DNA from: Gemmatimonadota bacterium
GTDB lineage: Bacteria; Gemmatimonadota; Gemmatimonadetes; Longimicrobiales; Gaopeijiaceae
Assembly (NCBI GenBank): GCA_028874905.1
Contig: JAPPGZ010000073.1
Span: 62,001-126,000 of the forward strand
Length of the DNA: 64,000 bases
Reading direction: 5' to 3'
The notes under the pieces are model-generated. The model had not been told where the DNA came from. It saw only the letters and a list, made by a program, of their open reading frames with translations, and did not search any database. This document shows, piece by piece, positions 2,793 to 38,016 of this stretch. The translations under genes were made by a program, and so were the position numbers. Each line of letters begins with the position of its first letter. Position 1 is the first letter of the stretch.

Positions 2793-3040
2793 TAGCAGTC
2801 CGTGGATAGAGCCGCCCGAGCACCGAGAGCGGCGAGGCGCCGGGCCGGCAAGGCGCGACGAAGGGCCCGTAGCAGTGCTACGGGTCCGAGGTGCAACGCA
2901 GAGCGCGGCCCCGACAACCGAAAATGTATGGCAAACATCACATGATGTACGCTTTGTCTTACAGTGTGCGGAGGTGGGGCCGAGCGTCCGGCCCGGATGC
3001 ATCGCCGCTCGAATGCCGGGGGGATTCTGTCCGCGGGCTG
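2793..3040 (+). repeat. Inverted-end repeat element, copy 1 (with nested insert)
   Basis: The left end TAGCAGTCCGTGG lies at 2793 and the right end ...GTCCGCGGGCTG at 3040. Between them are blocks nearly identical to the copies at 6153 and 25109: CACCGAGAGCGGCGAGGCGC at 2821, an internal perfect hairpin at 2866-2884 (CCCGTAGCA, one base, TGCTACGGG), CAACGCAGAGCG, and GGATGCATCGCCGCTCGAAT. Compared with the other full copies (about 175 bp) this one is about 75 bp longer because of a nested insert at about 2907-2982. It fills most of the 375-bp gene-free stretch between the LTxxQ gene and tdh. Here the element starts 5 bases after the stop codon, not on it. The family looks like a non-autonomous mobile or REP-type element; no transposase is present. 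Confidence 0.85.
2907..2982. repeat. Nested 76-bp insert inside repeat copy 1, with inverted ends and operator-like repeat
   Basis: The other two full copies read through GAGCGNAGCGGTCC here. In this copy the sequence is opened by about 76 bp beginning GGCCCC (2907-2912) and ending GGGGCC (2976-2981), a perfect 6-bp inverted pair. The interior is clearly richer in A+T than its surroundings and contains the inverted repeat ACATCA-CA-TGATGT at 2935-2948. It lies about 180 bp upstream of the tdh-kbl operon, so it may supply a promoter or operator. Whether it is a true insertion or divergent filler cannot be settled from one locus. Confidence 0.6.
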
Positions 3041-3162
3041 TTCGGCACCAGCCTTGCCCCCGGTGCGTTTACCGGCATTTTTTCATGGCCGGTCAATCGA
3101 CCGGTCGGCCCATGTTCGGACCGCCCGCTCGCAGATTCCAGAGAGTCGGCCATCTCCCCCAT

Positions 3163-4134
3163 ATGAAGCGTATCCTGATAACCGGAGCTGCCGGGCAGAT
3201 CGGGACCGAGCTCTCCGCGGCCCTCCGGACGCGCTACGAGCCCGAGACGGTGTTGGCCACGGACATCCGCAATCCCGCGGAGTGGGCCGGAGCATACCAC
3301 GCCGAAGAGCTCGACTCTCTGGACACGCGAGCCGTGCGTGGCGCCGTGGAGCGGTTCGGAGCCACCGAGATCTTTCACCTCGCGGCGGTCCTGTCCGCTG
3401 CGGCCGAACAGGATCCGGCGCGCGCCTACCGCATCAACATGGGCACGCTTCTGAACGTCCTGCAGGTCGCGGCCGAAACGGGTTGCCGGGTGTTTACGCC
3501 CAGTTCGATCGCCGTCTTCGGGCCGGAGACGCCGAGTGATCCGGCCCCACAGTCCACGCTGCAGCGGCCGACGACCATGTATGGCGTCACAAAGGTCGCC
3601 GGCGAGCTTCTCTGCGACTACTACCACACGCGTTTCGGAGTCGACGCCCGCGGACTCCGCTTTCCGGGACTCGTCTCCTATACGGCCCCCGCGGGCGGCG
3701 GGACCACCGACTACGCCGTCGACATCTTCCGCTGCGCGCTGACCGAGGGCCGCTACACGTGCTTCCTGAAGCCGGACACGCGCATGGACATGCTGTACAT
3801 GCCCGACGCGATACGCGCGATCGTGGAGCTGATGGAAGCACCGTCCGAGGCATTGGTCCACCGCAACGCGTTCAACGTCACGGGCATGCATTTCACTCCG
3901 GCCGAGCTCGCGGACGCGATACGCGTGCACATGCCGGACTTCGAGATCGTGTACGAGCCGGACCCGTTGCGCCAGGCCATCGCAGATTCGTGGCCCGCGC
4001 GTCTGGACGACTCGGAGGCGTTCGAACAGTGGGGCTGGCGCGCCGAATACGGGCTTCCGGACATGGTGGCGGACATGTTCAGGGGACTGAGAAGCCAACT
4101 CGCCCGTGAGGGATCGGGCTCCGCCCGGAGGTAA
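3163..4134 (+). CDS. tdh: L-threonine 3-dehydrogenase, SDR type
   Basis: A protein of 323 residues of the extended short-chain dehydrogenase/epimerase family. It has an N-terminal GAAGQIG dinucleotide motif (residues 8-14) and the catalytic Tyr-x3-Lys as YGVTK (Y140, K144). The SSIAVFGPE segment and the RFPGLVSY segment are typical of the SDR-type threonine dehydrogenases, which oxidise threonine to 2-amino-3-ketobutyrate with NAD+. The start at 3163 was chosen because MKRILITGAAG is the normal N-terminus; the frame is open upstream through the repeat element but that is not coding. The next gene, 8 bases on, encodes KBL, the enzyme that uses this product, which strongly supports the assignment over a sugar epimerase. 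Confidence 0.92.
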   Translation: MKRILITGAAGQIGTELSAALRTRYEPETVLATDIRNPAEWAGAYHAEELDSLDTRAVRGAVERFGATEIFHLAAVLSAAAEQDPARAYRINMGTLLNVLQVAAETGCRVFTPSSIAVFGPETPSDPAPQSTLQRPTTMYGVTKVAGELLCDYYHTRFGVDARGLRFPGLVSYTAPAGGGTTDYAVDIFRCALTEGRYTCFLKPDTRMDMLYMPDAIRAIVELMEAPSEALVHRNAFNVTGMHFTPAELADAIRVHMPDFEIVYEPDPLRQAIADSWPARLDDSEAFEQWGWRAEYGLPDMVADMFRGLRSQLAREGSGSARR

Positions 4135-4142
4135 GCGACAAG

Positions 4143-5375
4143 ATGCCGATGGATCGCCTGACCGACGTGGTCAATCGCCTCGTCGCCGGGATGGAGGAGG
4201 CGGGGACCGCAAAGGGAGCCGAAATCGTCGTGCGGGAGGTGATCCCGCCGCAGGGCGGACACGGTCCCCGATTCCTACTGGAGGGACAGGGCGACAAGCG
4301 ATTCATCCGCATGAATGCCAACTCGTACCTGGGTCTCAGCCTGCACCCCGAGGTCATCGAGGCCGAGGAGACCACGGCGCGCGCAATGGGTGCCGGACCG
4401 GGGGCCGTTCGTTTCATCGCGGGGACGCACACGCCGCACATCGAACTGGAGCGCGGACTGGCAGCGTTTCATGGGCGGGAAGAGGGGATGATCTTCTCTT
4501 CGGCCTACGCGGCAGTAGTAAGCGCGCTTGTTTCCCTCACCGACAGGACCACCTTCCTGCTGTCCGACGAACTCAATCACAACTGCATCATCAACGCGAT
4601 CCGGATGTCCCGCCCGGCAGGGAAGGCGATCTACCCGCACCTGGATCTGGCCGCGCTGGATCGCCAGCTGGACGAAGCGAAGGGTGTTGCACGCCGGGCG
4701 ATCGTGGTGACCGACGGGATCTTCTCGATGCGTGGCGACCACGCCCCGGTCGACGAGATCATGGATATCGCGAGGAAGCACGATCCCGACTACCCCGAGA
4801 ACGTGGTGGTCTTGGTGGACGACTCTCACGGTGTCGGCGCGTTCGGGGCCACCGGCCGGGGCACCGAGGAATACACCGGCAGCCCACCCTGCGACCTTCT
4901 CGTGGGCACCCTGGGCAAGGCGTTCGGCGTCAATGGCGGCTACGTCGTGTCGAGCGCGCCGGTGATCCGCTTTCTGCGCGAGTCTTCGCCCCTGTACATC
5001 TACTCGAACCCCATAACCGCCGGCGAAGCCGCAGCGGCGCGGAAATCGCTGGAGATTCTGCAGGGACCGGAAGGCGCGACGCGGTTGCGGCACCTGCGCA
5101 ACCTCACCGGTCGATTCGAGTCGGGGCTGGTATCGCGCGGTTTCGAGATCATCCCGGGCGACCACCCCATCGTGCCCATCATGGTGCGCGACACCACCGA
5201 GACCCGCCGCCTGGTCGCCGCCCTCTTCGACGCCGGCGTGCTGGCCACGGGCCTAGCCTTCCCCGTCGTTCCGCGCGGCGACGAGTCGATCCGCTTCCAG
5301 ATCAACGCCGACCACACCGAGGCCGGCATCGACTACGTCCTCGCGGCGCTCGAACAGGCCCGCCGGGCCGTGTGA
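4143..5375 (+). CDS. kbl: 2-amino-3-ketobutyrate CoA ligase (glycine C-acetyltransferase)
   Basis: A 410-residue PLP enzyme of the alpha-oxoamine synthase family, which cleaves 2-amino-3-ketobutyrate with CoA to glycine and acetyl-CoA. Visible motifs are MNANSYLGLSLHPEV near residue 57, the cofactor Asp/His region VVLVDDSHGVGAFG (about 222-235), and the PLP lysine in GTLGKAFGVNGGY (K259). Length is normal. A second in-frame ATG lies two codons downstream (4149). Together with tdh it forms a two-gene route from threonine to glycine and acetyl-CoA. The family also contains serine palmitoyltransferase and AONS (BioF), but the tdh neighbour decides in favour of KBL. Confidence 0.92.
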   Translation: MPMDRLTDVVNRLVAGMEEAGTAKGAEIVVREVIPPQGGHGPRFLLEGQGDKRFIRMNANSYLGLSLHPEVIEAEETTARAMGAGPGAVRFIAGTHTPHIELERGLAAFHGREEGMIFSSAYAAVVSALVSLTDRTTFLLSDELNHNCIINAIRMSRPAGKAIYPHLDLAALDRQLDEAKGVARRAIVVTDGIFSMRGDHAPVDEIMDIARKHDPDYPENVVVLVDDSHGVGAFGATGRGTEEYTGSPPCDLLVGTLGKAFGVNGGYVVSSAPVIRFLRESSPLYIYSNPITAGEAAAARKSLEILQGPEGATRLRHLRNLTGRFESGLVSRGFEIIPGDHPIVPIMVRDTTETRRLVAALFDAGVLATGLAFPVVPRGDESIRFQINADHTEAGIDYVLAALEQARRAV

Positions 5376-5408
5376 TGGGACAACCGACCAACCGGACCTG
5401 ACACGACC

Positions 5409-6155
5409 GTGCGCATTGCCATCATCTCGGACATCCATGCCAACCTGCCCGCCCTGGAGGCTGTGCTCGCAGATATTGCGTCCCGGCGCGCCGACGCCAC
5501 GTACCACCTTGGAGATCTCGTCGGCTACGGCCCTTGGCCCAACGAAGTCATCGAACGGATCCGGTCCGCCGGCATCGCGGGGGTGGCGGGCAACTACGAC
5601 ACGACCGTCGCCCTCGGCCACCCGAGTTGCGGCTGTCAGCACGACGACCCTCGTCACCGGGCGCTGTCGACACAGAGCTACCGCTGGACGCGCGAAAACA
5701 CCACGGCCCGCAACCGACGCTACCTGGCCAGTCTCCCGTTCCGTCTCGATCTGCGGCCATTCGGCGGACACGCGCCCGGGTGTACCCTGATCCTCGTCCA
5801 CGGGGCGGCGACGCTCAACACGGTCTACTGGCGCGAGGACCGATCCGACCGGTTCTGCGACAAGATGATCGGCTTGCTGCGCGCCCGCGAAGGCGACGCG
5901 ATCTTCTTCGGTCACACCCACAAGCCCTGGACCAGGACGTTCCAGGGTCGGACCCTGGTGAACACCGGCTCCGCCGGCAGGCCCAAGGACGGCGACCCGC
6001 GTGGTTCCTACGCGCTTGTGCGATTCGCCGCCGACGAGATCGAGGTCCGCTTCCCGCGTGTCTCCTACGACCTGGACCGCGCTGTCGCGGCAATCAAGGC
6101 GGCGGGGCTTCCCGACGAGCTGGGGGTCGTCCTCAGGACCGGCGGGTCGCTCTAG
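5409..6155 (+). CDS. Metallophosphoesterase (calcineurin-like)
   Basis: A 248-residue protein starting with GTG. It has the two-metal phosphoesterase signature: SDIHAN (D8, H10), HLGDLVGYGP, GNYD and the C-terminal GHTHKPW. The order and length match the YfcE/MJ0936-like small phosphodiesterases and the ApaH-like group. The real substrate (cyclic nucleotide, dinucleotide or phosphoprotein) is not predictable. Its stop codon TAG (6153-6155) is also the first three bases of repeat copy 2. It starts 33 bases after kbl, so it may share its transcript. Confidence 0.85.
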   Translation: MRIAIISDIHANLPALEAVLADIASRRADATYHLGDLVGYGPWPNEVIERIRSAGIAGVAGNYDTTVALGHPSCGCQHDDPRHRALSTQSYRWTRENTTARNRRYLASLPFRLDLRPFGGHAPGCTLILVHGAATLNTVYWREDRSDRFCDKMIGLLRAREGDAIFFGHTHKPWTRTFQGRTLVNTGSAGRPKDGDPRGSYALVRFAADEIEVRFPRVSYDLDRAVAAIKAAGLPDELGVVLRTGGSL

Positions 6156-6325
6156 CAGTCCGTGGAGAAAGCCGCGCGAGCACCGAGAGCGGCGAGGCGC
6201 CGGGCCGGCAAGGCGCGACGAAGGGCCAGTAGCAGCGCTACGGGCGCGAGGAGCAACGCAGAGCGAAGCGGTCCGGCGCGGATGCATCGCCGCTCGAATG
6301 CCGGGGGCTTTTCTCCACGGACTGC
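6153..6325 (+). repeat. Inverted-end repeat element, copy 2 (cleanest copy)
   Basis: This copy shows the inverted ends best. The left end GCAGTCCGTGGAGAAAGCC (from 6156) pairs with the right end GGCTTTTCTCCACGGACTGC (6306-6325), with a single one-base difference. Interior blocks match copies 1 and 3, including a CAGTAGCAGCGCTACGGG imperfect hairpin near 6227 and GGATGCATCGCCGCTCGAAT. The element fills the whole space between the phosphoesterase and the convergent gene on the other strand. Its TAG start is the stop codon of the upstream gene. Its strong pairing potential means it could also act as a bidirectional terminator between two convergent genes. Confidence 0.88.
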
Positions 6326-6331
6326 CAAACG

Positions 6332-7453
6332 CTAGTTCCAGGGCCTCACCCGGAGGAAGAAGGACCCGCCGAAGCGGGTGTAGTAGGCCCCGCTGATATT
6401 CGTCTCCACCTTCTGCCAGCCGAAGCGGAATGCGCCCGAAACCCTGTCTCCCAGGTGTCTGGTCAACTCGGCATACAGTATCGAGGCGTTGTCCGCCTCC
6501 TCTCCCGGGACCAGCGCGTCCTGACCGGGCTGGATGAAACGCTTGCGGGCCAGAGTGCCCAGGAGGCCGACCTGCGTGTTCTCTCCCAGAATCCAGTCGG
6601 CCCGGCCGTTCAGGCGGGCGGCGTTGTACTCCACCCGAAGCGATGTCGAGCGGCTGCGCGTTCCTTCCAGCGTCAACTCGAGCGACAGCCGCTCCCACCT
6701 GCCCTGGAAGGCCGCGCCCGCCCCCACGGCATGGTCGATTCGGGGCGAACCCTGTCCCTGTTGCGGATAGCTGTGATAGCTGTAGCTGCTGAAAGCCCGC
6801 AGCCCCCAGTAGTCGTTTCGATCAAGCTCGCCCACGCCACGGTAGATCTTTCTGACGCCCGCGTTCACCACCAGCGAGGACCGGTCCAGCAGGTCGAGCG
6901 CGGGCAGCACCTTCGGGGCCGCGTAGTCGGCGATCTCTCCCTCGACGCCGAGGTCGAGGAAGCCGCGGTGCAGGTAGGACACCCCGGCGGTGTAGCGATC
7001 GTATCCCGGCGAGAGATACAGCGGCATCGGGGGCCGGTCGGAAATACTCCTGAACCGTGCTCCGGTATGGGCTGTCACGGCCCCGCTCCGGATCAGGCGC
7101 TGATACGTCGTTTCCATGCTGCCGCTGTGCTCGCGGGGGGCGTAGTTGCGCAGCTGGAAGCCGCCTGTCGCGAACTGGCGGATCCCGCCGTCGAACGCCA
7201 CGTCGACGGACTGGTTCTCGCGTCCCATGAGCCGCAGGATGCCTCGGACCGTAACCTCTCCCACACCGGCCACGGCCCTCTCGGTCGAGTCGATCTGGGG
7301 GACCGTAATCGCGGAGAAGTTCCCCAGGTAGCCCTCAAGCGAAGCGCCTTCCGTGATCACGAAGTCACGGAGACGAATCTGACCGTCCGCCGCGGCCGGG
7401 GTGGCGACGCCGGCGCAAATCGCGACGAACGGCAGAAGGCGTCCGGCCCTCAT
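6332..7453 (-). CDS. Putative outer-membrane beta-barrel protein
   Basis: A 373-residue protein with an N-terminal signal peptide (MRAGRLLPFVAICAGVATPAAA, cleavage near residue 22). The rest shows alternating short strands rich in aromatic residues and Gly, for example YRGVGELDRNDYWGLRAFSS, and ends with a strand closing in an aromatic (FFLRVRPWN), as expected for a barrel inserted by BAM. I recognise no named family. It is the last gene of a leftward operon and overlaps the coiled-coil gene before it by four bases (ATGA), which itself is coupled to a two-component pair. The role is unknown: possibly an export pore or a sensor of envelope state. Confidence 0.65.
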   Translation of the reverse strand: MRAGRLLPFVAICAGVATPAAADGQIRLRDFVITEGASLEGYLGNFSAITVPQIDSTERAVAGVGEVTVRGILRLMGRENQSVDVAFDGGIRQFATGGFQLRNYAPREHSGSMETTYQRLIRSGAVTAHTGARFRSISDRPPMPLYLSPGYDRYTAGVSYLHRGFLDLGVEGEIADYAAPKVLPALDLLDRSSLVVNAGVRKIYRGVGELDRNDYWGLRAFSSYSYHSYPQQGQGSPRIDHAVGAGAAFQGRWERLSLELTLEGTRSRSTSLRVEYNAARLNGRADWILGENTQVGLLGTLARKRFIQPGQDALVPGEEADNASILYAELTRHLGDRVSGAFRFGWQKVETNISGAYYTRFGGSFFLRVRPWN

Positions 7454-8361
7454 GGCCTGCGCTCCGCTTCCCTTTGGAAATCCTCGACCTTCTGCTGCAG
7501 TTGCTCGATCCGCTCGAGGACGCTGTCCCTGAGCCCGGTCAGCCTGGCTATCCGCGTCTCCAGGGGCTCCAGCGCCAGGTCCACCGCCGTCGTATCGCCG
7601 ACCGCGGCCGTAGCACCCGAGCGGGGCATTACCGGAACCACAACGTCGTCGAATCCCGTCACGCCCGCGTACAGGTCGTCCCGAGTCCGCTCCCAGCGCT
7701 GCCTCTTCTCCAGCTGTGCGATCTCCCCGTCCAGCTCGCTCGACAGGTCCTCGAGGACCGTGATTTTGCTCTGCAGATTGCGGATCTTGAATTCGACCTC
7801 ACGCCGGGTGTCGTCCGGCTGGATCTGCAGGTCGGGCATCGGCGGCAGTTCCAATTCCCGCCGGGGGCCCAACTGCGTCGTCGTTTCGCTTTCGACCTCG
7901 TCGAGGCGGGCGCTGTACAGATTGTACACCGCCAGCAAATCGGGATTGGAACCCACGGGGGAACGCTCCATCTGCTGTACCTGGAGCTCGATCCGGGCCT
8001 CAAGCGCACTGATCAGACCCTCACTGGCATCGTGCCATTCGTCCTTGCGTATCCGGAGGGCACCTTCGGCCCGGTCCCTTTCCTGAGAAAGGTCCTGGAG
8101 CTGTGCCAGAATCTCGGTGATACGCCTCTCGTCCTCCGCGGCCTGCGTTCGGCCGAATTCCTCCATGAGCTGTTGCCAGCGGCTTTCGTAGTACTCCCAC
8201 TCCTGGTACGCGGCCTGGTAGTTGTCCCTGGCCACCTCGTACCTGCCCTCCCAGTCGTCCACGACCTGCGACAGATTCCCCTGCGCGCCAAGAGCGACCG
8301 GCGCGCCTGCGGCGGCCAACACTCCGATCAGCAGCGGGACGGACCAGCGCAGGTACCTCAT
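7450..8361 (-). CDS. Exported coiled-coil protein of unknown function
   Basis: A 303-residue protein with a signal peptide (about residues 1-26, ending GAPVALGAQG). The mature part is almost entirely charged, Gln/Glu/Arg-rich helix with heptad character, for example at about residues 30-140, 185-235 and 260-300, broken by a Pro-rich segment LELPPMPDLQIQP near residue 170. It looks like a periplasmic filament or adaptor, but no named family is recognised. It is translationally coupled on both sides: one base shared with the regulator gene upstream and four bases with the barrel gene downstream. That suggests it works with the barrel protein, perhaps as a periplasmic partner. Confidence 0.7.
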   Translation of the reverse strand: MRYLRWSVPLLIGVLAAAGAPVALGAQGNLSQVVDDWEGRYEVARDNYQAAYQEWEYYESRWQQLMEEFGRTQAAEDERRITEILAQLQDLSQERDRAEGALRIRKDEWHDASEGLISALEARIELQVQQMERSPVGSNPDLLAVYNLYSARLDEVESETTTQLGPRRELELPPMPDLQIQPDDTRREVEFKIRNLQSKITVLEDLSSELDGEIAQLEKRQRWERTRDDLYAGVTGFDDVVVPVMPRSGATAAVGDTTAVDLALEPLETRIARLTGLRDSVLERIEQLQQKVEDFQREAERRP

Positions 8362-9770
8362 CAGTCGATACCGTATTTCTCGATCTTGTAGTACAGCCGG
8401 CTCTTCGGAATGCTCAGCAACCGGGCGGCCTCCGCCTTGGCGCCCCCCGTACGGGCCAGTGCCTGCCGGATCAGCCTCTCCTCCATGCCCTCCACGGCTC
8501 GTCCGAGGTCGACGCCCTCTTCACCCAGGTTCACCACGGACACGCCGGCACCCGCGCCGTTGGCCAGCAACGGCAGATCGCCCTCCTCCAGCTGTTGGCC
8601 ATCCGCGAGCACGAGAGCCTGTTCAATGACGTTTTCCAGCTCACGGACGTTTCCAGGCCAGTCGTACTCCTTCAACCGACTCAGAGCGTCCTGGCTGATC
8701 TCCGTAACGCTGGAGCGTGTCCGGTCCCGGAGCTTGCCGATGAAATGGCCGGCGAGGAGCTCGATGTCGTCCTTGCGGTCCCTCAGGGGAGGCACCGTCA
8801 CTGGCACAACGTGGAGACGGTAGTACAGGTCTTCCCGGAAGCCGTCGCCGGCCAGGAGGTCTTCCGCGGGCGTATTCGTCGCCGCCACGATGCGCACGTC
8901 GACGGCGATGGTGTCCTCGCCGCCGAGGCGCTCCAGCTCGCGCTCCTGCAGGACGCGCAGCAGGCGAACCTGCGTCGCCGGGCTGATGGTCGAAATCTCG
9001 TCGAGGAAGAGGGTTCCGCCGTCCGCCAGCTCGAAGCGGCCGCGCCTCCGTTTGGCCGCGCCGGTGAAGGCGCCACGCTCGTGGCCGAAGAGTTCGGAGT
9101 CGAGCAGGCCCTCGGGCAGCGCACCGCAGTTGACGCGTATGAACGGACCCTTGTGGCGCGCGGAGCGAGCGTGAATCGCGCGCGCGACCAGTTCCTTCCC
9201 GGTGCCCGACTCGCCGTACACCATGACCGTGGAGTCGGACCGCGCCACGCGCTCCACCAAGCGCTTGACACGTTTGATGGTCTCGGATTTGCCCACCATC
9301 TCCCCGTACGGCGTGCTGTCGTCTCCCGCCTCGCTCCGCAGGTAGGTGTTCTCGACCCTGAGGGCGAGGTTTTCCTGCTGCAGGCGCAGCCGCTCGTCGC
9401 GTTCGCGCAGGATGCGGTCCACCTTGATCCCGAACTCCTCCGACGAAAACGGCTTGGAGATGAAGTCGCAGGCCCCCAGCTTCATTGCCTCGACCGCGCG
9501 CTCGACCGTGCCGTGCGCGGTGATCACCAGCACATCGGTGTTCGGCGAGCTGGTCTTGATTTCCTTCAGGACTCTGATGCCGTCGTCCGCCCTGGCCATC
9601 TTCAGATCGGTGATGACCAGGTCGGCCCCCGCCTCCTCCAGGATGCGCAGGCCCTCGTCCCTGCCGCCAGCCGAGAGCGTCCTGTGTCCGCGGCGGCGCA
9701 TTAGTATCTCCAGGCCTTCGCGAATGGCGTCGTGATCGTCAATGATCAACACCTGCCTGTGGCCGCTCAT
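8361..9770 (-). CDS. NtrC-family sigma-54-dependent response regulator
   Basis: A 469-residue protein with three domains in order: a receiver domain (acidic pocket DD at 11-12, phospho-acceptor D55 in LVITDLKM, conserved K106), a AAA+ domain (Walker A GESGTGK at 186-192, the sigma-54 contact loop GAFTGA at 233-238, Walker B in GGTLFLDEIS) and a Fis-type helix-turn-helix at the C-terminus (AEAARLLSIPKSRLYYKIEK). The intact GAFTGA loop means it should activate sigma-54 promoters. Its gene overlaps the histidine kinase gene by four bases, so the two form a cognate pair. The downstream coiled-coil and barrel genes are coupled to it. I could not identify a convincing -24/-12 promoter by eye. Confidence 0.95.
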   Translation of the reverse strand: MSGHRQVLIIDDHDAIREGLEILMRRRGHRTLSAGGRDEGLRILEEAGADLVITDLKMARADDGIRVLKEIKTSSPNTDVLVITAHGTVERAVEAMKLGACDFISKPFSSEEFGIKVDRILRERDERLRLQQENLALRVENTYLRSEAGDDSTPYGEMVGKSETIKRVKRLVERVARSDSTVMVYGESGTGKELVARAIHARSARHKGPFIRVNCGALPEGLLDSELFGHERGAFTGAAKRRRGRFELADGGTLFLDEISTISPATQVRLLRVLQERELERLGGEDTIAVDVRIVAATNTPAEDLLAGDGFREDLYYRLHVVPVTVPPLRDRKDDIELLAGHFIGKLRDRTRSSVTEISQDALSRLKEYDWPGNVRELENVIEQALVLADGQQLEEGDLPLLANGAGAGVSVVNLGEEGVDLGRAVEGMEERLIRQALARTGGAKAEAARLLSIPKSRLYYKIEKYGID

Positions 9771-11275: not shown

Positions 11276-11301
11276 GGTCGGCTAATCCTGTCCACGGTCT
11301 G

Positions 11302-12366: not shown

Positions 12367-12370
12367 CGCC

Positions 12371-12913: not shown

Positions 12914-12996
12914 AGGCAGGCCGGGGCGCCCTGCACGGACTCGGCGAGCGATGCGGCCCGCGTCCCGCAACGTGAACCTGCGTCCACAACCGCGGG

Positions 12997-14100: not shown

Positions 14101-14461
14101 GGAAGCCTGTCGAAGAGCATGAGGAAGAACAGTGAGCGAACCCGGGAGCGGAAATTCACGGACAAGAGTGAATCTCGTCTGTGAAATATGGCATTAAAGA
14201 AAGATAAACTCATCATCATAGGGATGGTGGATACTGTGGAAATCGTTCGTGTGGAGACGCCCGAGAGGGTTTGATTCAGCGGCCCGGGGGTGGAATGCGG
14301 GTGGTGTGGAAATCCGTGGAGAAGCCGGGCATTGTCCCGCCCTGCGCCGGGCTTGCTGTGGAAAAAGAGGGAAATCAGGGCGCTTTTCCACCGAGTTTTC
14401 CACGCCGCAGCGCCGCGCGGCCCTCCGCAGAAGCGATGAAACCCGTGTGATGCCCGCCCCT
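14101..14461. other. oriC: Probable chromosomal origin region (oriC) with DnaA boxes
   Basis: This 361-bp gap between dnaA and dnaN has no plausible gene. It contains at least five boxes close to the DnaA consensus TTATNCACA: ATTTCCACA read on the minus strand at 14235-14243 and 14305-14313, TTTTCCACA on the minus strand at 14357-14365, and TTTTCCACC (14384-14392) and TTTTCCACG (14396-14404) on the plus strand. An A+T-rich patch at about 14180-14222 (ATATGGCATTAAAGAAAG) could be the unwinding element. The boxes are imperfect, as is common in high-GC genomes. The dnaA promoter side (15857-16104) is the other possible site but has fewer such boxes. Confidence 0.7.
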
Positions 14462-24590: not shown

Positions 24591-24646
24591 TGGCGCGGTT
24601 CTCCGCAAGATTACCCGTATCCAGGGAAGGCAGACGGTTGTAAGCC

Positions 24647-25111
24647 ATGGCACGAAAAGGACCTACCCCAGCGTCATCGCCCGAACAGGTCATCTCCATC
24701 GTCGGGCCCGGACTGCGCGTTGTCGGCGACTGCGACACGACCGACACCATTCGAATCGAAGGGCACATCGAAGGTTCCGTCCGCGCCCACAAGGCGGTCG
24801 TGATCGGCAAGGCGGGAAGGGTCAACGGCGATATCCACACCCAGGACGCCGTGATCGCGGGCGCCGTGAAGGGTGCGCTGGTCGTGGAGTCCCGTCTGGA
24901 ACTGCAGGCTACGTGCCACATCGACGGCGAAATCAGTGCCGCGCGTCTGCAGCTGGAGGAAGGCGGGATCGTGAGCGGCACCATCAGTGTTGGTCAAAAG
25001 GACGCAGGGGTGGCGATTGACCCCGGAGCCGCAGGTGCCGACCGGCCCAAGGGTGCAGGGACCGGGCAGGCCGGCAAGGTGCTGGGCGTTGGCGGGAAGG
25101 TGAAGGTGTAG
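24647..25111 (+). CDS. Bactofilin (polymer-forming cytoskeletal protein)
   Basis: A 154-residue protein with the bactofilin beta-helix core (about residues 20-120): GDCDTTDTIRIEGHIEGSVRAHKAVVIGKAGRVNGDIHTQ is followed by similar rungs such as GALVVESRLELQATCHIDGEI. Ends are Pro- and Gly-rich, as usual. It self-assembles into filaments that scaffold envelope enzymes, probably including the M23 peptidase encoded 56 bp upstream. Its stop codon TAG is the first three bases of repeat copy 3. Confidence 0.93.
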   Translation: MARKGPTPASSPEQVISIVGPGLRVVGDCDTTDTIRIEGHIEGSVRAHKAVVIGKAGRVNGDIHTQDAVIAGAVKGALVVESRLELQATCHIDGEISAARLQLEEGGIVSGTISVGQKDAGVAIDPGAAGADRPKGAGTGQAGKVLGVGGKVKV

Positions 25112-25284
25112 CGGCCCGTGGACAAAATCCCCCCGGCATTCGAGCGGCGATGCATCCAGGCCGGACCGCTGCGCTCTGCGTTGCTCCTCGGGCCCGTAGC
25201 ACTGCTACTGGCCCTTCGTCGCGCCTTGCCGGTCCGGGGCCTCGCCGCTCTCGGTGCGCGGGCGGCTTTATCCACGGACTGCTA
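25109..25284 (-). repeat. Inverted-end repeat element, copy 3 (opposite orientation)
   Basis: The element runs from TAGCGGCCCGTGGACAAAAT at 25109 to TCCACGGACTGCTA at 25284. Its interior is the reverse complement of copies 1 and 2: GGATGCATC-like GATGCATCC at about 25150, CGCTCTGCGTTGC, CGTAGCACTGCTACTGG and CCGGTCCGGGGCCTCGCCGC. It starts on the bactofilin stop codon, and its other end also finishes with TA. It fills the 207-bp gap before the Nif3-like gene. Confidence 0.85.
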
Positions 25285-25318
25285 GCGGCCCCGGGCTGCG
25301 AGGCGGAAACCGGCGGTC

Positions 25319-26077: not shown

Positions 26078-26104
26078 AGCAGGCACCCGATACCAGGAGT
26101 TGGC

Positions 26105-29256: not shown

Positions 29257-29267
29257 GGAGGACCGCG

Positions 29268-30437: not shown

Positions 30438-30543
30438 GGGGCGTGCGCGCCGCGCCGCGTGCATCGCCGCTCCCCGTCCATGGTGCGAAAAGTGCGACTT
30501 TCTTATGATTCACGGCCCTTGAGACATCGGAGATCACGGACAG

Positions 30544-31665
30544 GTGACTTTTTCGCAAGCAAGAACTCCGGGCGGGTACGCGCCCGCGGGGAAGGACACC
30601 GGTACGGTCAAGCCGAAGGGAACGTCCCGGATCCGGGCCCATTGCGGGATCGACACCATCCCGATCACGTCGCGCAAGCCGTCGTGGCTGAAGGTGAGGT
30701 CCCCCGGCGGGCCGAACTACCTGCGGCTCAAGCAGCTCATGCGCAGCCAGTCGCTGCACACCGTCTGCGAAGAGGCGGGCTGCCCGAACATCGGGGAGTG
30801 CTGGGAGGCGGGCACGGCGACGTTCATGATCCTCGGGGACGTCTGCACCCGGGCCTGCAAGTACTGCGCGGTCGCGCACGGGATGCCCACCGAACTGGAC
30901 CTGGACGAACCCCGCCGAGTCGCCGACACGATCGCCGCGATGGACCTCGACCACGTCGTCGTCACGTCGGTCAACCGTGATGAACTCGCGGACGGCGGCG
31001 CGAGCATCTACGCGGCGACGATCCGCGAGGTGCGTGCCCGGCTGCCGGCCTGCTCGGTCGAGGTGCTGATCCCCGACTTCAAGGGCGACGAGGACGCGTT
31101 GCGGGTCGTGATGGATGCACGGCCCGCCATCCTGGGCCACAACCTGGAGACGGTCGAGCGCCTGCATCCGGAGGTGCGCCCCGGGGGCCGCTACTGGCGC
31201 TCGATCTCCTACCTCGGGCTGGCCAAGCGGATCGACGCCTCTATGCTGACCAAGACGGGGATCATCCTGGGCATGGGCGAGGAGGAGGCCGAAATCCGGC
31301 AGGCCATGGCGGACCTGCGCGAGGCGGCAGTCGACATCCTCACGCTCGGACAGTACCTGAGACCGTCCCGGCAGCACATCCCGGTGGCCCGCTGGGTCAC
31401 GCCGGATGAATTCCGCGACTGGAAGCGGATCGGCGAGGGCGAGTACGGCTTCCGCCATGTCGAGTCGGGGCCGCTGGTGCGCTCCAGCTATCACGCGAAG
31501 GAACAGGCGCGCGAGGTCGAGGCGGGGGGACCGGGCAGCATCCGCGACGTGATGGAGGCGGATGTTCCGGCGCCGGCGGAAGTGGTTGCGATGCCCGCGA
31601 ACAGCCAGCCACGACGCCCCCTGATCCAGCTCCGCACGAATCGGGCCTTGGGCACGGGGGGCTGA
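30544..31665 (+). CDS. lipA: Lipoyl synthase
   Basis: A radical-SAM enzyme that inserts two sulfurs into octanoyl groups on lipoyl domains. Both [4Fe-4S] clusters are marked: the auxiliary cluster CEEAGCPNIGEC and the radical-SAM CTRACKYC. The C-terminal RSSYHA that ligates the auxiliary cluster is also present. It has 373 residues with a GTG start and a longer tail than usual. It is the first gene of a pyruvate dehydrogenase operon whose E2 subunit is its substrate; the gap to pdhA is 5 bp. lipB is not in the window. Confidence 0.96.
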   Translation: MTFSQARTPGGYAPAGKDTGTVKPKGTSRIRAHCGIDTIPITSRKPSWLKVRSPGGPNYLRLKQLMRSQSLHTVCEEAGCPNIGECWEAGTATFMILGDVCTRACKYCAVAHGMPTELDLDEPRRVADTIAAMDLDHVVVTSVNRDELADGGASIYAATIREVRARLPACSVEVLIPDFKGDEDALRVVMDARPAILGHNLETVERLHPEVRPGGRYWRSISYLGLAKRIDASMLTKTGIILGMGEEEAEIRQAMADLREAAVDILTLGQYLRPSRQHIPVARWVTPDEFRDWKRIGEGEYGFRHVESGPLVRSSYHAKEQAREVEAGGPGSIRDVMEADVPAPAEVVAMPANSQPRRPLIQLRTNRALGTGG

Positions 31666-31670
31666 GGCGG

Positions 31671-32816
31671 ATGGCGCAAGGGATGCGGACGGCTGCCGGG
31701 CGGACGGCCGACGGTACCGTGCCAGGCGCGAACGGATCCGAGACCGTGGACGGGAGCGAGCCTGCCGCGTCCAAGGGACTTGACGGCTTCACGCGAGAGG
31801 AACTTCACGCCCTCCTCGCCGACATGCTCCTCTACCGCCGCTTCGAGGAGAAGGCGGAAGAGGCGTATGCGATCGGCAAGATCGGCGGCTTCTGTCACCT
31901 GCACATCGGCCAGGAGGGGCTGGCGGCGGGGTCGATCAAGCCGCTCCGCGACGACGACCTGGTGATCACCGCGTACCGCGAACACACGCAGGCCATCGCC
32001 AAGGGCATCAGCCCCGGCGCCGCAATGGCCGAGCTGTATGGGCGGGTGGATGGGTGTTCGGGTGGCCGGGGCGGCTCGATGCACCTCTTCGACACCACGG
32101 TCGGGTTCTGGGGCGGCCACGGGATCGTCGGCGGGCAGATTCCGCTGGGCGCGGGGCTGGCGTGGGCAATCAAGTACCGCGGCGGCGACCAGATCTGCCT
32201 GTGCTTCATGGGTGACGCCGCAGTCAACCAGGGCGCGTTTCTCGAAGCCCTGAACATGTCCGCAATCTGGCATCTGCCGGTCATATATGTGGTCGAGAAC
32301 AACGGTTACGGGATGGGAACCGCGTTTTCACGCGTCTCGGCCACCGAGATGGAAGCGCGCTCGGGTGCCTACGGGATTCCGGCGCATACCGTCAATGGGC
32401 AGGACGTCGTGGCAACCTACCGGTTCTTCGAGGAGCTGGCGGAGCGGGTGCGCTCAGGGGCCGGTCCGCAGTTCGTGAACGCCGTGACCTACCGCTTCCG
32501 GGGCCACTCCATGTCCGACCCGGTTTCCGGAACGTATCGCTCGAAGGAAGAGGTGGACTCCCACGTCGAAGCGCAGGATCCGATCAAGATTCTGCGCGAC
32601 CGGTTGATGGACTCGGGGCTCCTGACGCAGGAGGAACTGGAGGCGCTGGACGCGGAGGCACGGGCTCTAACCGACGAGGCCGCCGACTTCGCGGACGCTT
32701 CGCCGTTGCCCGACCCTTCGACGCTCTACGATCACGTGTACGCCGAGATCAACCGGCACGGCCGCCTCTTCCTTGACGGCCGGGAACGCGGCCCCGCCGG
32801 GGGCACCCATGGCTGA
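31671..32816 (+). CDS. pdhA: Pyruvate dehydrogenase E1 component, alpha subunit
   Basis: A 381-residue subunit with the ThDP motif GDAAVNQGAFLEALNMSAIW...ENN and the preceding GGRGGSMHLFD. With the beta subunit it decarboxylates pyruvate and acetylates the E2 lipoyl groups. It has a low-complexity N-terminal extension of about 40 residues before GLDGFTREELHALLADMLLYRRFEEKAEE, so a later start is possible. It overlaps pdhB by 8 bases. Confidence 0.95.
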   Translation: MAQGMRTAAGRTADGTVPGANGSETVDGSEPAASKGLDGFTREELHALLADMLLYRRFEEKAEEAYAIGKIGGFCHLHIGQEGLAAGSIKPLRDDDLVITAYREHTQAIAKGISPGAAMAELYGRVDGCSGGRGGSMHLFDTTVGFWGGHGIVGGQIPLGAGLAWAIKYRGGDQICLCFMGDAAVNQGAFLEALNMSAIWHLPVIYVVENNGYGMGTAFSRVSATEMEARSGAYGIPAHTVNGQDVVATYRFFEELAERVRSGAGPQFVNAVTYRFRGHSMSDPVSGTYRSKEEVDSHVEAQDPIKILRDRLMDSGLLTQEELEALDAEARALTDEAADFADASPLPDPSTLYDHVYAEINRHGRLFLDGRERGPAGGTHG

Positions 32817-33786
32817 ACTCACCTACCGCGAGGCCCTGAACGCGGCCATGTGCCAGGAAATGGACCGGGACGACTCGGTCTTCCTGATGGGCGAGGAGGT
32901 CGCGGAATACGACGGCGCCTACAAGGTGTCGCGCGGAATGCTGGAGCGGTATGGCGACCGGCGGGTCGTGGATTCCCCGATCAGCGAGCTGGGGTTCACC
33001 GGCCTGTGCGTGGGGGCGGCGATGGCGGGCCTGCGCCCGATCTGCGAATTCATGACCTTCAACTTCTCGATACTGGCGTTGGACCAGGTGATCAACAGCG
33101 CGGCGAAGATGCTGTACATGACGAACGGCCAGGTTCCCGTGCCAATCGTCTTTCGCGGGCCGACCGGAGCAGCCTTGCAGTTGTCGGCGCAGCACTCCCA
33201 GGCGTGTGAGACCTACTATGTCCACGCGCCCGGCGTGAAGCTGGTGACCCCGGCCACACCCGCCGACGCGAAGGGGCTCCTCGCGGCCGCGATACGCGAC
33301 GACGACCCCGTCGCGGTGATGGAAGGCGAACTGCTGTACAACGTGCGTGGCGAGGTTCCCGACGGCGAATACGTGATCCCCCTCGGCGTGGCCGACCGGA
33401 AGCGCCCGGGCGACGACGTGAGCATCGTCACCCACGGCAAGATGGTGCATGTGGCACTCCAGGCCGCCGCCGCTCTGGCGCGGGAAGAGATCGAGGCCGA
33501 TGTCCTGGACCTGCGCTCGATTCGTCCGCTCGACGTGGACGCGATCCTGGAGAGCGTGGCACGCACGAACCGGGTGGTCTACCTGGAGGAAGGGTGGCCC
33601 TTCGCCGGCGTGGGCGCGCAGATCGTGGCGTTGATTCAGGACGAGGCCTTCGACGACCTGGACGCTCCCGTGGTGCGCGTCACCCAGGCGGACGTGCCGA
33701 TGCCGTACGCCAAGAACCTCGAGCAGCTCGCCAAACCGGGCGTCAAGGCGGTCGTGGAGGCCTGCAAGAGAGTGCTCTACCTCTGA
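32809..33786 (+). CDS. pdhB: Pyruvate dehydrogenase E1 component, beta subunit
   Basis: A 325-residue subunit starting at 32809 (MAELTYREALNAAMCQEM); the frame is open 12 codons further upstream inside pdhA. Conserved blocks are GEEVAEYDGAYKVSRG, SELGFTGLCVGAAM and YLEEGWPFAGVGAQI. It pairs with PdhA to form the alpha2-beta2 E1. The 8-base overlap suggests translational coupling. Confidence 0.95.
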   Translation: MAELTYREALNAAMCQEMDRDDSVFLMGEEVAEYDGAYKVSRGMLERYGDRRVVDSPISELGFTGLCVGAAMAGLRPICEFMTFNFSILALDQVINSAAKMLYMTNGQVPVPIVFRGPTGAALQLSAQHSQACETYYVHAPGVKLVTPATPADAKGLLAAAIRDDDPVAVMEGELLYNVRGEVPDGEYVIPLGVADRKRPGDDVSIVTHGKMVHVALQAAAALAREEIEADVLDLRSIRPLDVDAILESVARTNRVVYLEEGWPFAGVGAQIVALIQDEAFDDLDAPVVRVTQADVPMPYAKNLEQLAKPGVKAVVEACKRVLYL

Positions 33787-33799
33787 GAGAAGCGAAGCA

Positions 33800-35104
33800 A
33801 TGGCTACCAAGGTCCACATGGAGGCGCTCTCGCCCACGATGGAAGAAGGTCAGGTCGTCACCTGGCTGAAGGCTGAAGGCGACGCGGTCGCGCAGGGCGA
33901 CATCCTCGCGGAGATCGAGACCGACAAGGCAACGATGGAGCTGGTGGCGCGCGGCGAGGGTGTGCTGCGGAAGATCTTCGTGGACGAAGGCGCGACGGCG
34001 CCGGTGGGCGACGTGATCGCGGTCATCGGGGCAGAGAACGAGGACATCGCCACGCTGGTGGCGTCGGTTGAGCCGGCGGCGACCTCCGCGGCGCCGGCAG
34101 CGGCCGAGCCCGTGGCCCAGGCCGAGCCTGCGGCGCACGCCGAGCCTGCAGCCCAGGTCGCACCCGCAGCCGGCCTGCCAGCAGCCCCGCCGCCCGTCTC
34201 CGCGACGCCTGTGAGTCCGGAACCCGTACCGGCCCCGGTCGCCACCGCAGGGCGGATCAAGGCTTCGCCGGTCGCCCGTCGGCTCGCCGGCGAACTGGGG
34301 GTCGACCTTGCCGCGGTCCACGGGTCCGGGCCCAACGGCCGGGTGATCAAGCGGGACGTGGAAGCGGCGGCAGCGGCGCCTGTGGCGCCCGTGATCACAC
34401 CGGAGCTCCCGGACACGGAGTTCGTGGACGTTCCGCTCTCGCAGATGAGGAAAACGGTCGCCCGCCGCCTTGCCGAGTCGCTTGGACCCGTGCCTCACTT
34501 CTTCCTCACGGTGGACGTGGACATGACGCGGGCGCTGCAGGCGCGTGGCAGAGTGAACGAGCTGCTGGCCGCGCAGGGTGCGAAAGCGTCGCTCAACGAC
34601 ATGATCATCAAGGCGGCCGCCGTCGCGCTGACCCATCATCCGGAGTGCAACGCCTGGTGGCAGGGCGACTCGATCCGCCGGTTCAACCGGGTGCACATGG
34701 GTGTTGCGGTGGCCGTGCCCGACGGACTGATCACTCCGGTCGTGCGGGACGCCCACGCGAAGGGGTTGGGCCGGATCAGCACCGAGATCCGGGAACTCGC
34801 GGGGCGCGCACGTGAGAAGAAGCTCCAGCCCCACGAATACACCGGGTCGACCTTTTCCATCTCGAATCTGGGCATGTTCGGGATCGAGGAATTCACCGCC
34901 GTGATCAATCCGCCCGAAGCCGGGATCATCGCGGTGGGCGCGATCGAGGACCGGCCAGTGGTGGTGGACGGCCAGGTGGTTGTCCAGCCGAGGATGAAGG
35001 TCACCATGAGTTGCGACCACCGGGTGATCGACGGCGCCCAGGGAGCGCGCTTTCTGGCCACGCTGAAGTCATTCCTCGAGGAGCCCGCGGCGATCCTGAT
35101 CTAG
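33800..35104 (+). CDS. pdhC: Pyruvate dehydrogenase E2 component (dihydrolipoamide acetyltransferase)
   Basis: A 434-residue protein with one N-terminal lipoyl domain (ETDKATMEL, the modified Lys), a long Ala/Pro/Glu-rich linker with near-repeats AEPVAQAEPAAHAEPAAQ (about residues 96-155), a peripheral-subunit binding domain (KASPVARRLAGELGVDL, about 152-187) and the acyltransferase domain ending in the catalytic SCDHRVIDGA. This is the complete E2 layout with a single lipoyl domain. It is the substrate of LipA encoded upstream. Confidence 0.95.
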   Translation: MATKVHMEALSPTMEEGQVVTWLKAEGDAVAQGDILAEIETDKATMELVARGEGVLRKIFVDEGATAPVGDVIAVIGAENEDIATLVASVEPAATSAAPAAAEPVAQAEPAAHAEPAAQVAPAAGLPAAPPPVSATPVSPEPVPAPVATAGRIKASPVARRLAGELGVDLAAVHGSGPNGRVIKRDVEAAAAAPVAPVITPELPDTEFVDVPLSQMRKTVARRLAESLGPVPHFFLTVDVDMTRALQARGRVNELLAAQGAKASLNDMIIKAAAVALTHHPECNAWWQGDSIRRFNRVHMGVAVAVPDGLITPVVRDAHAKGLGRISTEIRELAGRAREKKLQPHEYTGSTFSISNLGMFGIEEFTAVINPPEAGIIAVGAIEDRPVVVDGQVVVQPRMKVTMSCDHRVIDGAQGARFLATLKSFLEEPAAILI

Positions 35105-35120
35105 TGCCAGGGAAAGACCC

Positions 35121-36473
35121 ATGAGTCCTCGTCGGCCCAGCCACCGTTCGCTCGTGCGGACGCTCAGCGACTTCGTCGTCGCCTTCCTCCTGCTGGGGGC
35201 GCTCACCGTGGCGCTGCCGGCCGCAGCGGCGGCGCAGGACCAGGATCACGTCCTGATTCGCGCGGCACGCATGATCGACGGCAAGGGGAACCTCATCGAA
35301 CCCGGTGCGGTCGTCGTCGCAGGCCACCGAATCGTCGCGGTGGGTGCCGACGACGCCACCCTGTCGGGCGATATCCTCGTCGATCTCGGCGACGCCACCA
35401 TCCTTCCCGGCCTGATCGACCTGCACACGCACCTCACCGACAAGGTCGGCACGCACTGGGAAGAGGTCCTGATCACGACCACCCCGGCCCAGGCCGCGCT
35501 CTACGGTGCGGCGAACGCGCTCACCACCCTGCGCGCCGGCTTCACCACGGTGCGCGACATGGGCCCGACCTGGTCCTACACCGACGTGGACCTGCGGGAC
35601 GCCATCAACGCGGGCGTGATCCCGGGGCCGCGCATGCAGGTGGCCGGCAACTACGTTTCGGCCACGGGGGGCGCCGGCGACGCCCGCCAGTTCTCGATCT
35701 ACGTGGACGTGCCCACCGTGCGGAACCTCGCCGATGGTGTCGATGCGGTGAGGGCGGCCGTCCGCACCAACCACAAGAACGGCGCCGACTTCACCAAGAT
35801 CCTGGCCACCGGCGCGGTATTGTCGCAGGGGCTGCCGCCCGGGGCGCAGCAGTACTCGGACGAGGAGCTGGCGGTGGCCGTCGAGGAGACGAACCGCTGG
35901 GGCCGCTTCACCGCCGCGCACGCGCACGGCACCGAGGGGATCAAGGCGGCGATCCGCGCCGGCGTCCGCACCGTTGATCACGGCTCGATGCTCGACGACG
36001 AGGCGATCGCGATGTTGCAGGAGAGCGACCACACGTACTACGTCCCGACGCTGTACGTGGGCGTGATCGTCCCGCGCGACGGGGCGGCGCTCGGCATCCC
36101 CGAGCCGCTCATCCAGCGCTCCATCGAGATGATGCGTTACCGCAACACCACCTTCCGCAGAGCCCTCGACGCCGGGCTGACGATCGGGTTCGGCACCGAT
36201 GCGGGCGTCTTCGAGCACGGCCACAACGCCCGCGAGTTCCAGATCCGGGTCGAGATCGGCGAGAGCGAAATGGACGCGATCACCTCGGCGACCAGCGTCT
36301 CGGCGATGATCATGGGCTGGGAGGAGGACGTGGGTTCGCTCGAAGCGGGGAAGTATGCGGACATCATCGCGGTTCCCGGCAACCCGCTCGACGACATCAC
36401 CGCGCTCGAGCGGGTGATGTGGGTGATGAAGGGCGGGGAAATCTACCGGGCCGATCCGGTGGAGGGGCGCTAG
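35121..36473 (+). CDS. Secreted amidohydrolase-family protein
   Basis: A 450-residue protein with a signal peptide (about residues 1-38, ending LPAAAAAQ). The amidohydrolase metal site shows HTH in GLIDLHTHLTD, a carboxylated-Lys candidate in FTKILATG, HAHG and the C-terminal GFGTDAGVFEHG. Members of this group hydrolyse dipeptides (Xaa-Pro), cyclic amides or similar small substrates. It lies between pdhC and lpdA, interrupting the usual order of the complex, and its stop codon is the TAG of the mini-repeat at 36471. Exact substrate unknown. Confidence 0.85.
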   Translation: MSPRRPSHRSLVRTLSDFVVAFLLLGALTVALPAAAAAQDQDHVLIRAARMIDGKGNLIEPGAVVVAGHRIVAVGADDATLSGDILVDLGDATILPGLIDLHTHLTDKVGTHWEEVLITTTPAQAALYGAANALTTLRAGFTTVRDMGPTWSYTDVDLRDAINAGVIPGPRMQVAGNYVSATGGAGDARQFSIYVDVPTVRNLADGVDAVRAAVRTNHKNGADFTKILATGAVLSQGLPPGAQQYSDEELAVAVEETNRWGRFTAAHAHGTEGIKAAIRAGVRTVDHGSMLDDEAIAMLQESDHTYYVPTLYVGVIVPRDGAALGIPEPLIQRSIEMMRYRNTTFRRALDAGLTIGFGTDAGVFEHGHNAREFQIRVEIGESEMDAITSATSVSAMIMGWEEDVGSLEAGKYADIIAVPGNPLDDITALERVMWVMKGGEIYRADPVEGR

Positions 36474-36496
36474 CAGGTTAGCTTTCCACGGGCTGC
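36471..36496 (+). repeat. Collapsed remnant of the inverted-end repeat family
   Basis: TAGCAG followed at once by GTTAGCTTTCCACGGGCTGC reads like the left end of the element joined directly to its right end, with the interior lost. TAG is the amidohydrolase stop codon, as in copies 2 to 4. At 26 bp the match could be accidental; its placement on a stop codon makes it more believable. Confidence 0.5.
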
Positions 36497-36538
36497 CGAC
36501 CGCGGTTTCGGAATCACACCCTGAAGAGAGGTTTTCCC

Positions 36539-37957
36539 TTGGCAGGCAATTCGCAGAGCAAGACCGACTTCGATGTCATCGTCATCGGTGGCGGGCCCGG
36601 GGGGTACGTCGCGGCCATCCGGGCCGGCCAACTGGGCCTCAGGACGGCTTGCGTGGAAGCCGACAAGCTGGGCGGCGTGTGCCTGAACGTCGGGTGCATC
36701 CCGACCAAGGCGCTTCTGAGCAGCGCGCTGCTGGTCAATGAACTCAAGAAGGCGGACGGACACGGCATCACCTTCGAGGGGCTCACGGTCGACCTCGCGC
36801 CGGCCCAGGCGCGCAGCCGGCAGGTCGCGAATCGCCTTTCCAACGGCGTGAGCTTCCTTCTCAAGAAGAACAAGGTCGAGCACATCGAGGGGTACGGTCG
36901 AATGCTGGGCGGAGGGGCGGTGGAGGTCGAGAAGGAAGGGGACAAGCGCACCGTCACCGCGAAGGACATCATCATCGCGACCGGTTCGCGGCCGCGCAGC
37001 CTCCCCTTCCTCGAGATCGACGAGGAGCGGATCTGGTCGTCGACCGGCGCGCTCTTCCAGGACAAGGCTCCAGAGACGCTCGTGGTTGTCGGCGCGGGCG
37101 CGGTCGGTGTGGAGTTTGCGGACATCTACAACGCCTACGGGACGAAGGTGACCCTCATCGAGGCCCTCGATCGCATCCTGCCGCTGGAGGACAAGGACTC
37201 GTCACGCACCGTGGCTCAGGCGTTCAAGAAGCGGAAGATGGACATCTTCACGAGTGCCCGCGTGGAGAGCACCGTGGCTCGTGAGGACGGTGTCACGATC
37301 TCCTTCACGGACAAGCGCGACAACGCGCACACTCTCGATGTGGACTACGTCCTGTCCGCGGTCGGGCGGATTCCGAATACGGAAGACATCGGCGCCGAGG
37401 CGGCGGGCGTGAAGCTGACCGAGCGCGGCGGATTCGTCGCGGTGGACGGGACCATGCGAACCAGCGTGCCCGGGATATGGGCGGTGGGCGACTGTGCGGG
37501 CGAACAGCTGCTGGCCCACAAGGGGATGCACGAGGGCGTTGTGGCGGCCGAGCACATTGCTGGCGTTGGACACCACACGGTCGACTACGGCAACGTCCCC
37601 AACTGCACCTACTGCCACCCCGAGGTGGCGTCCGTGGGCCTCACCGAGGAACAGGCGCGCGAGAAGGGCCTCGACATCGACGTCGGGAAGTTCCCCTGGG
37701 CGGGCAACGGCCGGGCCCTGGCGGGCGGGGACTCCACCGGATTCGTCAAGGTGATCCGCGACAAGCGCTACTCCGAGGTCGTCGGGGCGCACATCGTCGG
37801 GCCGCACGCCACCGAGCTCATCGCGGAGTTCGTGATGGCCCGGCACCTGGAGTCGACCGTGGAGGAGATCGACCTGGCAATGCACCCGCACCCGACGCTG
37901 TCGGAGGCGGTAGCAGAGGGCGCACTCGGGGCGCTGGGGCGGGCGCTGCACGTTTAG
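36539..37957 (+). CDS. lpdA: Dihydrolipoamide dehydrogenase (E3)
   Basis: A 472-residue FAD disulfide oxidoreductase with a TTG start. The FAD motif VIGGGPGGYVAA, the redox pair GGVCLNVGCIPTKALL, the NAD motif VVGAGAVGVEFADIY and the catalytic HPHPTLSE at the C-terminus are all present. It reoxidises the lipoyl groups of PdhC (and any other 2-oxoacid complex). Its stop codon TAG is the first three bases of repeat copy 4. Confidence 0.96.
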   Translation: MAGNSQSKTDFDVIVIGGGPGGYVAAIRAGQLGLRTACVEADKLGGVCLNVGCIPTKALLSSALLVNELKKADGHGITFEGLTVDLAPAQARSRQVANRLSNGVSFLLKKNKVEHIEGYGRMLGGGAVEVEKEGDKRTVTAKDIIIATGSRPRSLPFLEIDEERIWSSTGALFQDKAPETLVVVGAGAVGVEFADIYNAYGTKVTLIEALDRILPLEDKDSSRTVAQAFKKRKMDIFTSARVESTVAREDGVTISFTDKRDNAHTLDVDYVLSAVGRIPNTEDIGAEAAGVKLTERGGFVAVDGTMRTSVPGIWAVGDCAGEQLLAHKGMHEGVVAAEHIAGVGHHTVDYGNVPNCTYCHPEVASVGLTEEQAREKGLDIDVGKFPWAGNGRALAGGDSTGFVKVIRDKRYSEVVGAHIVGPHATELIAEFVMARHLESTVEEIDLAMHPHPTLSEAVAEGALGALGRALHV

Positions 37958-38016
37958 CAGCCCGCGGACAAAATCCCCCCGGCATTCGGTCGGCGATGCA
38001 TCCGGGCCGGCGCCCT
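37955..38016 (-). repeat. Inverted-end repeat element, copy 4 (truncated)
   Basis: TAGCAGCCCGCGGACAAAAT at 37955 followed by CCCCCCGGCATTCGGTCGGC and GATGCATCCGGGCCGG matches the left part of copy 3 closely. The match stops at about 38016. The central hairpin block and the other end are missing. It sits on the lpdA stop codon and ends about 75 bp before the S9 peptidase start. Confidence 0.75.

Follow-up and report, generated by a model that had tools for sequence, protein, structure and literature searches.

The elements that border gene ends in the window (the whole 64,000-nt stretch of DNA that was analysed, C92:62001-126000 of a host genome, G000, of 4.05 Mb in 111 contigs) are best read, from sequence comparison, as miniature gene-less derivatives (MITEs) of an IS1182-like insertion sequence (IS). 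Most likely, a gene-less MITE is moved by a separate IS1182-like IS of this marine-type Gemmatimonadota bacterium. We estimate a probability of about 0.83 for the whole account, in which the parent would be IS1182-like, the target would be of the CTAG type, and the placement at stop codons would be a by-product. We file the element as a MITE with a putative IS1182-like parent, a kind of element that is already known.

Copies in the window and extent of the family

The preliminary description had placed copies at 2793-3040, 6153-6325 and 25109-25284, a truncated one at 37955 and a remnant at 36471, and all five proved to be real at these places (Table 1). It had also stated that TAG is the stop codon of the preceding gene in four of the five cases, which held for the metallophosphoesterase, bactofilin, amidohydrolase (35121-36473) and LpdA (36539-37957) genes, each of which terminates on the TAG. 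Copy 1 is the exception: the preceding ORF 2221-2787, whose sole Pfam match stayed under the cut-off, closes with TGA, and the TAG at 2793 sits 5 nt downstream. No ORF of at least 120 aa terminates at this TAG among our gene calls, which come from our own codon-score script and no published gene finder. No IS with the element ends lies within the window, in agreement with the absence of a transposase reported there before. About 10 nt are repeated on both sides of copy 3 (25108-25117 and 25282-25291, G/CTAGCGGCCC) and of a second copy of the host genome (C86:25650-25658, CTAGGGGTCC); in these two copies, the first bases of one end thus equal the flank beyond the other end.

Table 1. Elements, target sites and neighbouring stop codons in the window (L, left end; R, right end)
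Feature	Position	Strand	Description
TGA stop of ORF 2221-2787	2785..2787	+	upstream of copy 1
Copy 1	2796..3040	+	245 bp (long type), oriented L to R, flanked by GTAG and TTCG; off any stop codon
CTAG target	6152..6155	+	its TAG (6153-6155) terminates the metallophosphoesterase gene (5409-6155)
Copy 2	6156..6324	+	169 bp (short type), oriented L to R; CCAA as right flank, not a duplicate of CTAG
GTAG	25108..25111	+	its TAG terminates the bactofilin gene (24647-25111)
Copy 3	25112..25281	-	170 bp (short type), in the opposite orientation, with the gene at its R end
Copy 3 right flank	25282-25285		CTAG (locus L023)
Scar at amidohydrolase stop	36470..36481	+	CTAG + CAGG + TTAG: 4 residual nt of the element between two target copies
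TTAG target	37954..37957	+	TAG is the LpdA stop
R-end fragment of truncated copy	37958..38010	-	

With the copy at 6153 as the query, at least 49 BLAST matches were obtained in the host genome (40 of 137 candidate places were scored), the best non-self match having E 1.8e-73, and grouping of the matches gave at least 42 elements, picked regardless of their flanks. The family is thus well beyond a chance occurrence; the exact 13-mer TAGCAGTCCGTGG occurs 19 times in this genome against 0 for the reversed control. Matches to the family at E<=1e-5 were found in 23/23 genomes searched of the host genus and in 10/36 other genomes of the family and order. In the relative G072, a burst genome, 116 ends match exactly over 16 nt, against 0 for the reversed control; its contig numbering is the same as that of G014, likewise called a burst genome.

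The copies come in two main sizes of about 170 and 245 bp, to which 17 and 17 of 37 copies conform within 1 bp. They are short and non-coding and have terminal inverted repeats with CAGYCCGTGGA at both ends, which places them among MITEs; like the bacterial MITEs MITEAba12, ERIC, NEMIS, RUP and Nezha, they are gene-less, but the parent IS differs. The most probable limits of the mobile unit are CAG and CTG, with four bases of target sequence to either side. The whole element folds as one long hairpin (z about -7), and passages of PMC3733652 ascribe robust folded structures to MITEs. No Rfam match was obtained at E<=1 for window positions 2700-6500, which cover copies 1 and 2.

Several arrangements of the family stand apart. 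Tandem copies split by a single 4-mer or a very short spacer occur at C14:49884-49887, C30:6239-6242 and C38:121377-121382 of the host genome and at C1:4079352-4079871 of G021, as if new copies inserted right beside older ones. At C30:34473, C97:53, C41:254, C43:3087, C52:25622 and C17:27 of the host genome, the element is connected with other DNA at or close to GCCGGGCCGGC, as if the element itself were the target of other mobile elements; the neighbour at the C30 junction is a 444-aa gene of the Phage_integrase family. A subtype of the end starts with GAG in place of CAG in MITEs at C29:26039, C107:154, C105:10718, C12:152494, C76:75932 and C69:24653 of the host genome, and also in one IS end (L288).

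The putative parent and its target

The preliminary description had suggested looking for an IS with the same ends, and such an IS is present elsewhere in the host genome and in its relatives. At two loci of G072 (L205 and L216), the element end TAGCAGYCCGTGGATAAAG is followed by a transposase gene, and full IS copies span CAG(Y/S)CCGTGGA to TCCACGGCCTG. The IS of the host genome, on contig C77, is interrupted by the contig end, and its end reads CTGG followed by CAGTCCGTGGATAAAG. The left end common to the MITE was displayed by 12 of 19 IS loci. The transposase contains the domains DUF772 (PF05598, 66.2 bits) and DDE_Tnp_1 (PF01609, 42.5 bits) above their cut-offs. The best NCBIfam model was NF033551 (IS1182), and because its score of 196.4 bits is below the equivalog cut-off of 270 bits, we call the transposase IS1182-like only; IS5 models scored lower. 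In the two IS copies at L274 and L275 of G072, the transposase reading shows an identical change of frame, and one of the copies also has an internal deletion.

The N-terminal part of the transposase was matched at E<=1e-10 in 13/23 genus genomes, the host genome included; with this query, no IS match was found in the other 10/23 although the MITE is present there. A full-length transposase query at E<=1e-40 gave matches in 8/59 relatives, 7 of them within the genus. MITE-like repeats outside the genus are mostly found without this IS at that threshold, so they may have a different parent.

The IS copies point to CTAG as the preferred target. Nine of 12 left ends follow CTAG and 8 of 9 right ends precede it, and in the seven copies with both ends read, six have CTAG on both sides and one has CTAA/CTAG. 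At L292, CAG directly follows CTAA, a sign that in GCAG the G belongs to the target and not to the element. For the MITE, we compared the flanking 4-mers of 37 two-ended copies (22 from G000 and 15 from G072), kept only where both ends matched and the flanks were distinct. The flanks are identical in 13 of the 37 (permutation mean 4.2; 0/20000 permutations as high), and 8 of these 13 pairs are not CTAG (permutation mean 0.7). The duplicated 4-mers are CTAG, TTAG, ATAG, CTGG, CCAG, CTGA and TTAA. The G072 copies were gathered by a TAG-containing pattern, which biases their TAG share and would miss TAA sites, and the permutation test keeps the margins. A 2-bp TA duplication, as first read from the dinucleotides, was discarded because the CA/TG pairs and the 4-mers fit a 4-bp duplication better.

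The remaining 24 of 37 pairs are unequal and resemble random pairs, and a target duplication is thus shown for only about one third of the copies. Exactly one mismatch was counted in 10 pairs where 13.3 were expected; without an excess of this class, drift from a lost duplicate has no support from this test as the cause of unequal flanks. The unequal flanks may come from insertion without duplication, or one side may have been lost or exchanged later. The 37 copies form two populations, 13 with identical flanks and 24 alike only by chance, as if some insertions had made no duplication.

Among known elements, E. coli IS5 comes nearest in its choice of target: it duplicates Py-T-A-Pu with CTAG as the commonest site, and of the 24 sites listed in PMC5493358, 15 are CTAG, 3 TTAG and 3 CTAA. 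In contrast to IS5, the transposase here belongs to a different subgroup, and the notable members are MITEs, many of them without a clean duplication. The IS1182 family, to which the best NCBIfam model points, includes IS1272, which is reported in passages of PMC5678879 to replace inverted repeats and to leave no duplication, whereas part of the copies here have one.

Stop codons as a probable supply of targets

The preliminary description had offered two explanations for the placement, a target preference and selection. A preference was found for CTAG and similar tetranucleotides, but not for stop codons as such. CTAG occurs 60 times in 264 kb (the window together with 200 kb from G061 and G062), compared with about 791 by base composition and 164 by a Markov estimate. 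Outside the elements of the window, 57 CTAG were classified into 18 stop codons, 19 intergenic and 20 coding sites, a census in which elements were masked in the window only and the 200 kb of G061 and G062 were left unmasked; about half of the non-coding targets (18/37) are therefore TAG stops. Among elements with a CTAG flank, 7/15 are on stops against 49% expected from a test masked everywhere. Since CTAG-flanked elements sit on stops as often as expected, recognition of stop codons is not needed. CTAG itself is only mildly favoured among TAG stops (22/49 vs 19/74, p 0.03).

In the genome-wide check of stop codons, 13 of the 42 elements of the host genome adjoin an in-frame TAG, and 25 of them have an end that coincides with a called stop or is no more than about 30 nt away from one. 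Selection probably acts as well: at each of the 36 ends with an inward-reading gene, a stop precedes the element, and none of the 42 elements is spanned by a called gene, though 20/57 CTAG are coding. For the IS copies, a clear in-frame stop (TAG) adjoins 3/9 right ends and 0/12 left ends.

It could be argued that gene ends are sensed directly by the transposase or by its complex, through the stop codon or a terminator structure, beyond the tetranucleotide. When any TAG was taken as the target, 13/25 TAG-flanked elements coincided with stops, where random non-coding TAG would give 28% (p 0.013), and the excess may come from selection that keeps only the stop-side TAG or from a real gene-end preference. 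The closeness of stops to the ends in 25/42 elements would fit such recognition, as would the targeting of inverted repeats by IS1272 of the IS1182 family, described in part of PMC5678879. However, with CTAG as the target the observed share agrees with the expected one, and short intergenic distances by themselves bring stops near. We consider direct recognition of gene ends improbable.

We also compared orthologous loci without the element, as the preliminary description had proposed. LpdA terminates at the same place in all 25 listed of 80 loci, whether the element is present or not, although the matched stretch at L131 finishes one residue early; these relatives share 67-94% identity, and their records are labelled as Gemmatimonadota, Gemmatimonadetes or Longimicrobiales MAGs. 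The stops of LpdA and of the other three genes are natural gene ends. The element adjoins the LpdA stop by its R end in the window and at L122 and by its L end at L109, and these mixed ends suggest more than one insertion at the same stop. The metallophosphoesterase TAG is at the same place in 7/12 loci, our own included, and L307, L308, L311 and L313 have it without an evident element. L307 reads CTAG-CCAAACG where the window reads CTAG-element-CCAAACG, with the second CTAG absent; since L306 has an apparent remnant at this site, L307 may be a deletion. In G061, the bactofilin orthologue has TGA at the same codon and lacks the element, and copy 1 is absent as well, its site reading GCCCG-AAGGCGCC.

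The amidohydrolase stop probably illustrates decay of the element. An element-free CGTTAGCTTTT is found at L112, L114, L117, L118 and L130 (5/9 listed loci), L110 has CGCTAG, a decayed element remnant and then TTAGCTTTT, and the window has CTAG-CAGG-TTAG. As a comparison of empty and filled alleles, this site counts in favour of a target duplication. At L109, upstream of LpdA, the amidohydrolase stop is now CAG, and the frame reads 14 codons via an element fragment to the next TAG, which is an example of the outcome when the TAG is not kept.

From these comparisons we propose that the target would be a tetranucleotide, best CTAG and also any of the other six duplicated 4-mers. In this GC-rich genome CTAG is a scarce site, about half of its non-coding occurrences being stop codons read as xxC-TAG. 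Insertion would leave one target copy on the gene side, so that the TAG stop would survive in whatever orientation. Insertions within genes are missing, presumably purged, and selection would keep the stop-side TAG while the element decays, producing scars such as that at the amidohydrolase gene, as the alleles suggest.

Other mobilisation systems and the orientation of the elements

MITEs of the IS630/mariner type, such as ERIC, RUP and Nezha, duplicate TA. An origin of this kind would account for TA as the commonest dinucleotide ahead of GCAG, but it is very unlikely here, as the duplications CCAG and CTGG contain no TA, and IS630 (DDE_3) was found in 7/23 genomes and in neither the host genome nor the burst genome G014. 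Convincing TA-flanked repeats, present at 5 of 26 loci, read GTGTAGTGTCC or GTGTTGTGTCC and are unrelated, and at L251 the element ends flank an IS630 gene on both sides but point away from it. An IS630 partner was rejected; neither a TA duplication nor an IS630 with the element ends (GCAGYCCGTGGA) was seen among the copies and loci compared.

Least credible of all is a REP/BIME-type element mobilised by a RAYT (Y1, IS200-like) whose GTAG ends supply stop codons, even though GTAG REP termini are often reported to give flanking ORFs their TAG stop (in passages of PMC3733652), the element is one long hairpin, and most copies lack a clean duplication; the RAYT partner suggested earlier was not found (Y1_Tnp in 0/23 genus genomes, with a positive control in 5/14 named genomes), the terminal repeats are common to a DDE IS, 13/37 copies have a 4-bp duplication, and the elements are 170-245 bp long while GTAG REPs are reported to measure 20-40 bp and to be often RAYT-linked.

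We return to the putative IS1182-like parent with its CTAG-type target, for which the orientation of the copies requires a separate consideration. The earlier claim that the two ends are interchangeable is right in kind, but the orientation relative to genes is not random. In G000 and G072 together, the gene next to the R end reads towards the element in 49 cases and away from it in 15, and for the L end the corresponding counts are 30 and 48 (p 8e-6), based on 95/100 G000 ends (fit <0.75 dropped) and 79/92 G072 ends (fit <20/30 or flank <200 nt dropped), with 32 of the 174 ends undecided. Placement of the R end towards gene 3' ends and of the L end towards gene starts is far commoner than the reverse. 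On stops we counted 17/46 R ends vs 6/49 L ends in G000, and 19/36 vs 5/43 in G072. This bias differs from MITEAba12, for which no genomic orientation preference is reported in passages of PMC6382973. A near-palindromic target gives no reason for the bias, and selection against one orientation is our simplest guess. An intrinsic terminator was rejected as the source, because the terminator scan of 2600-6500 gave three sites (1.9 expected), one about 20 nt past copy 1 and one about 40 nt past copy 2, and none inside these two copies. In copy 2, shuffled sequences fold as well as the terminal 64-nt RNAs do.

A further reading is that the CTAG-type target makes the family stop-codon safe in either orientation and that hosts use the element as a directional 3'-UTR module. 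We hold this reading to be doubtful; if true, it would explain why the R end lies at gene 3' ends and the L end at gene starts. In any case, the orientation bias gives reason to look for an effect of the element on transcription or on mRNA ends.

In passages of the open-licence PMC literature, among the matches listed, the family is not described and CTAG targeting is not named as a cause of stop-codon placement. According to the account favoured here, the puzzling 'stop-codon element' would follow from a target of the CTAG type, the scarcity of this site within coding DNA and the retention of one target copy next to the gene. Any CTAG-targeting IS or MITE in GC-rich genomes should obey the same logic, which is open to a test by counting.
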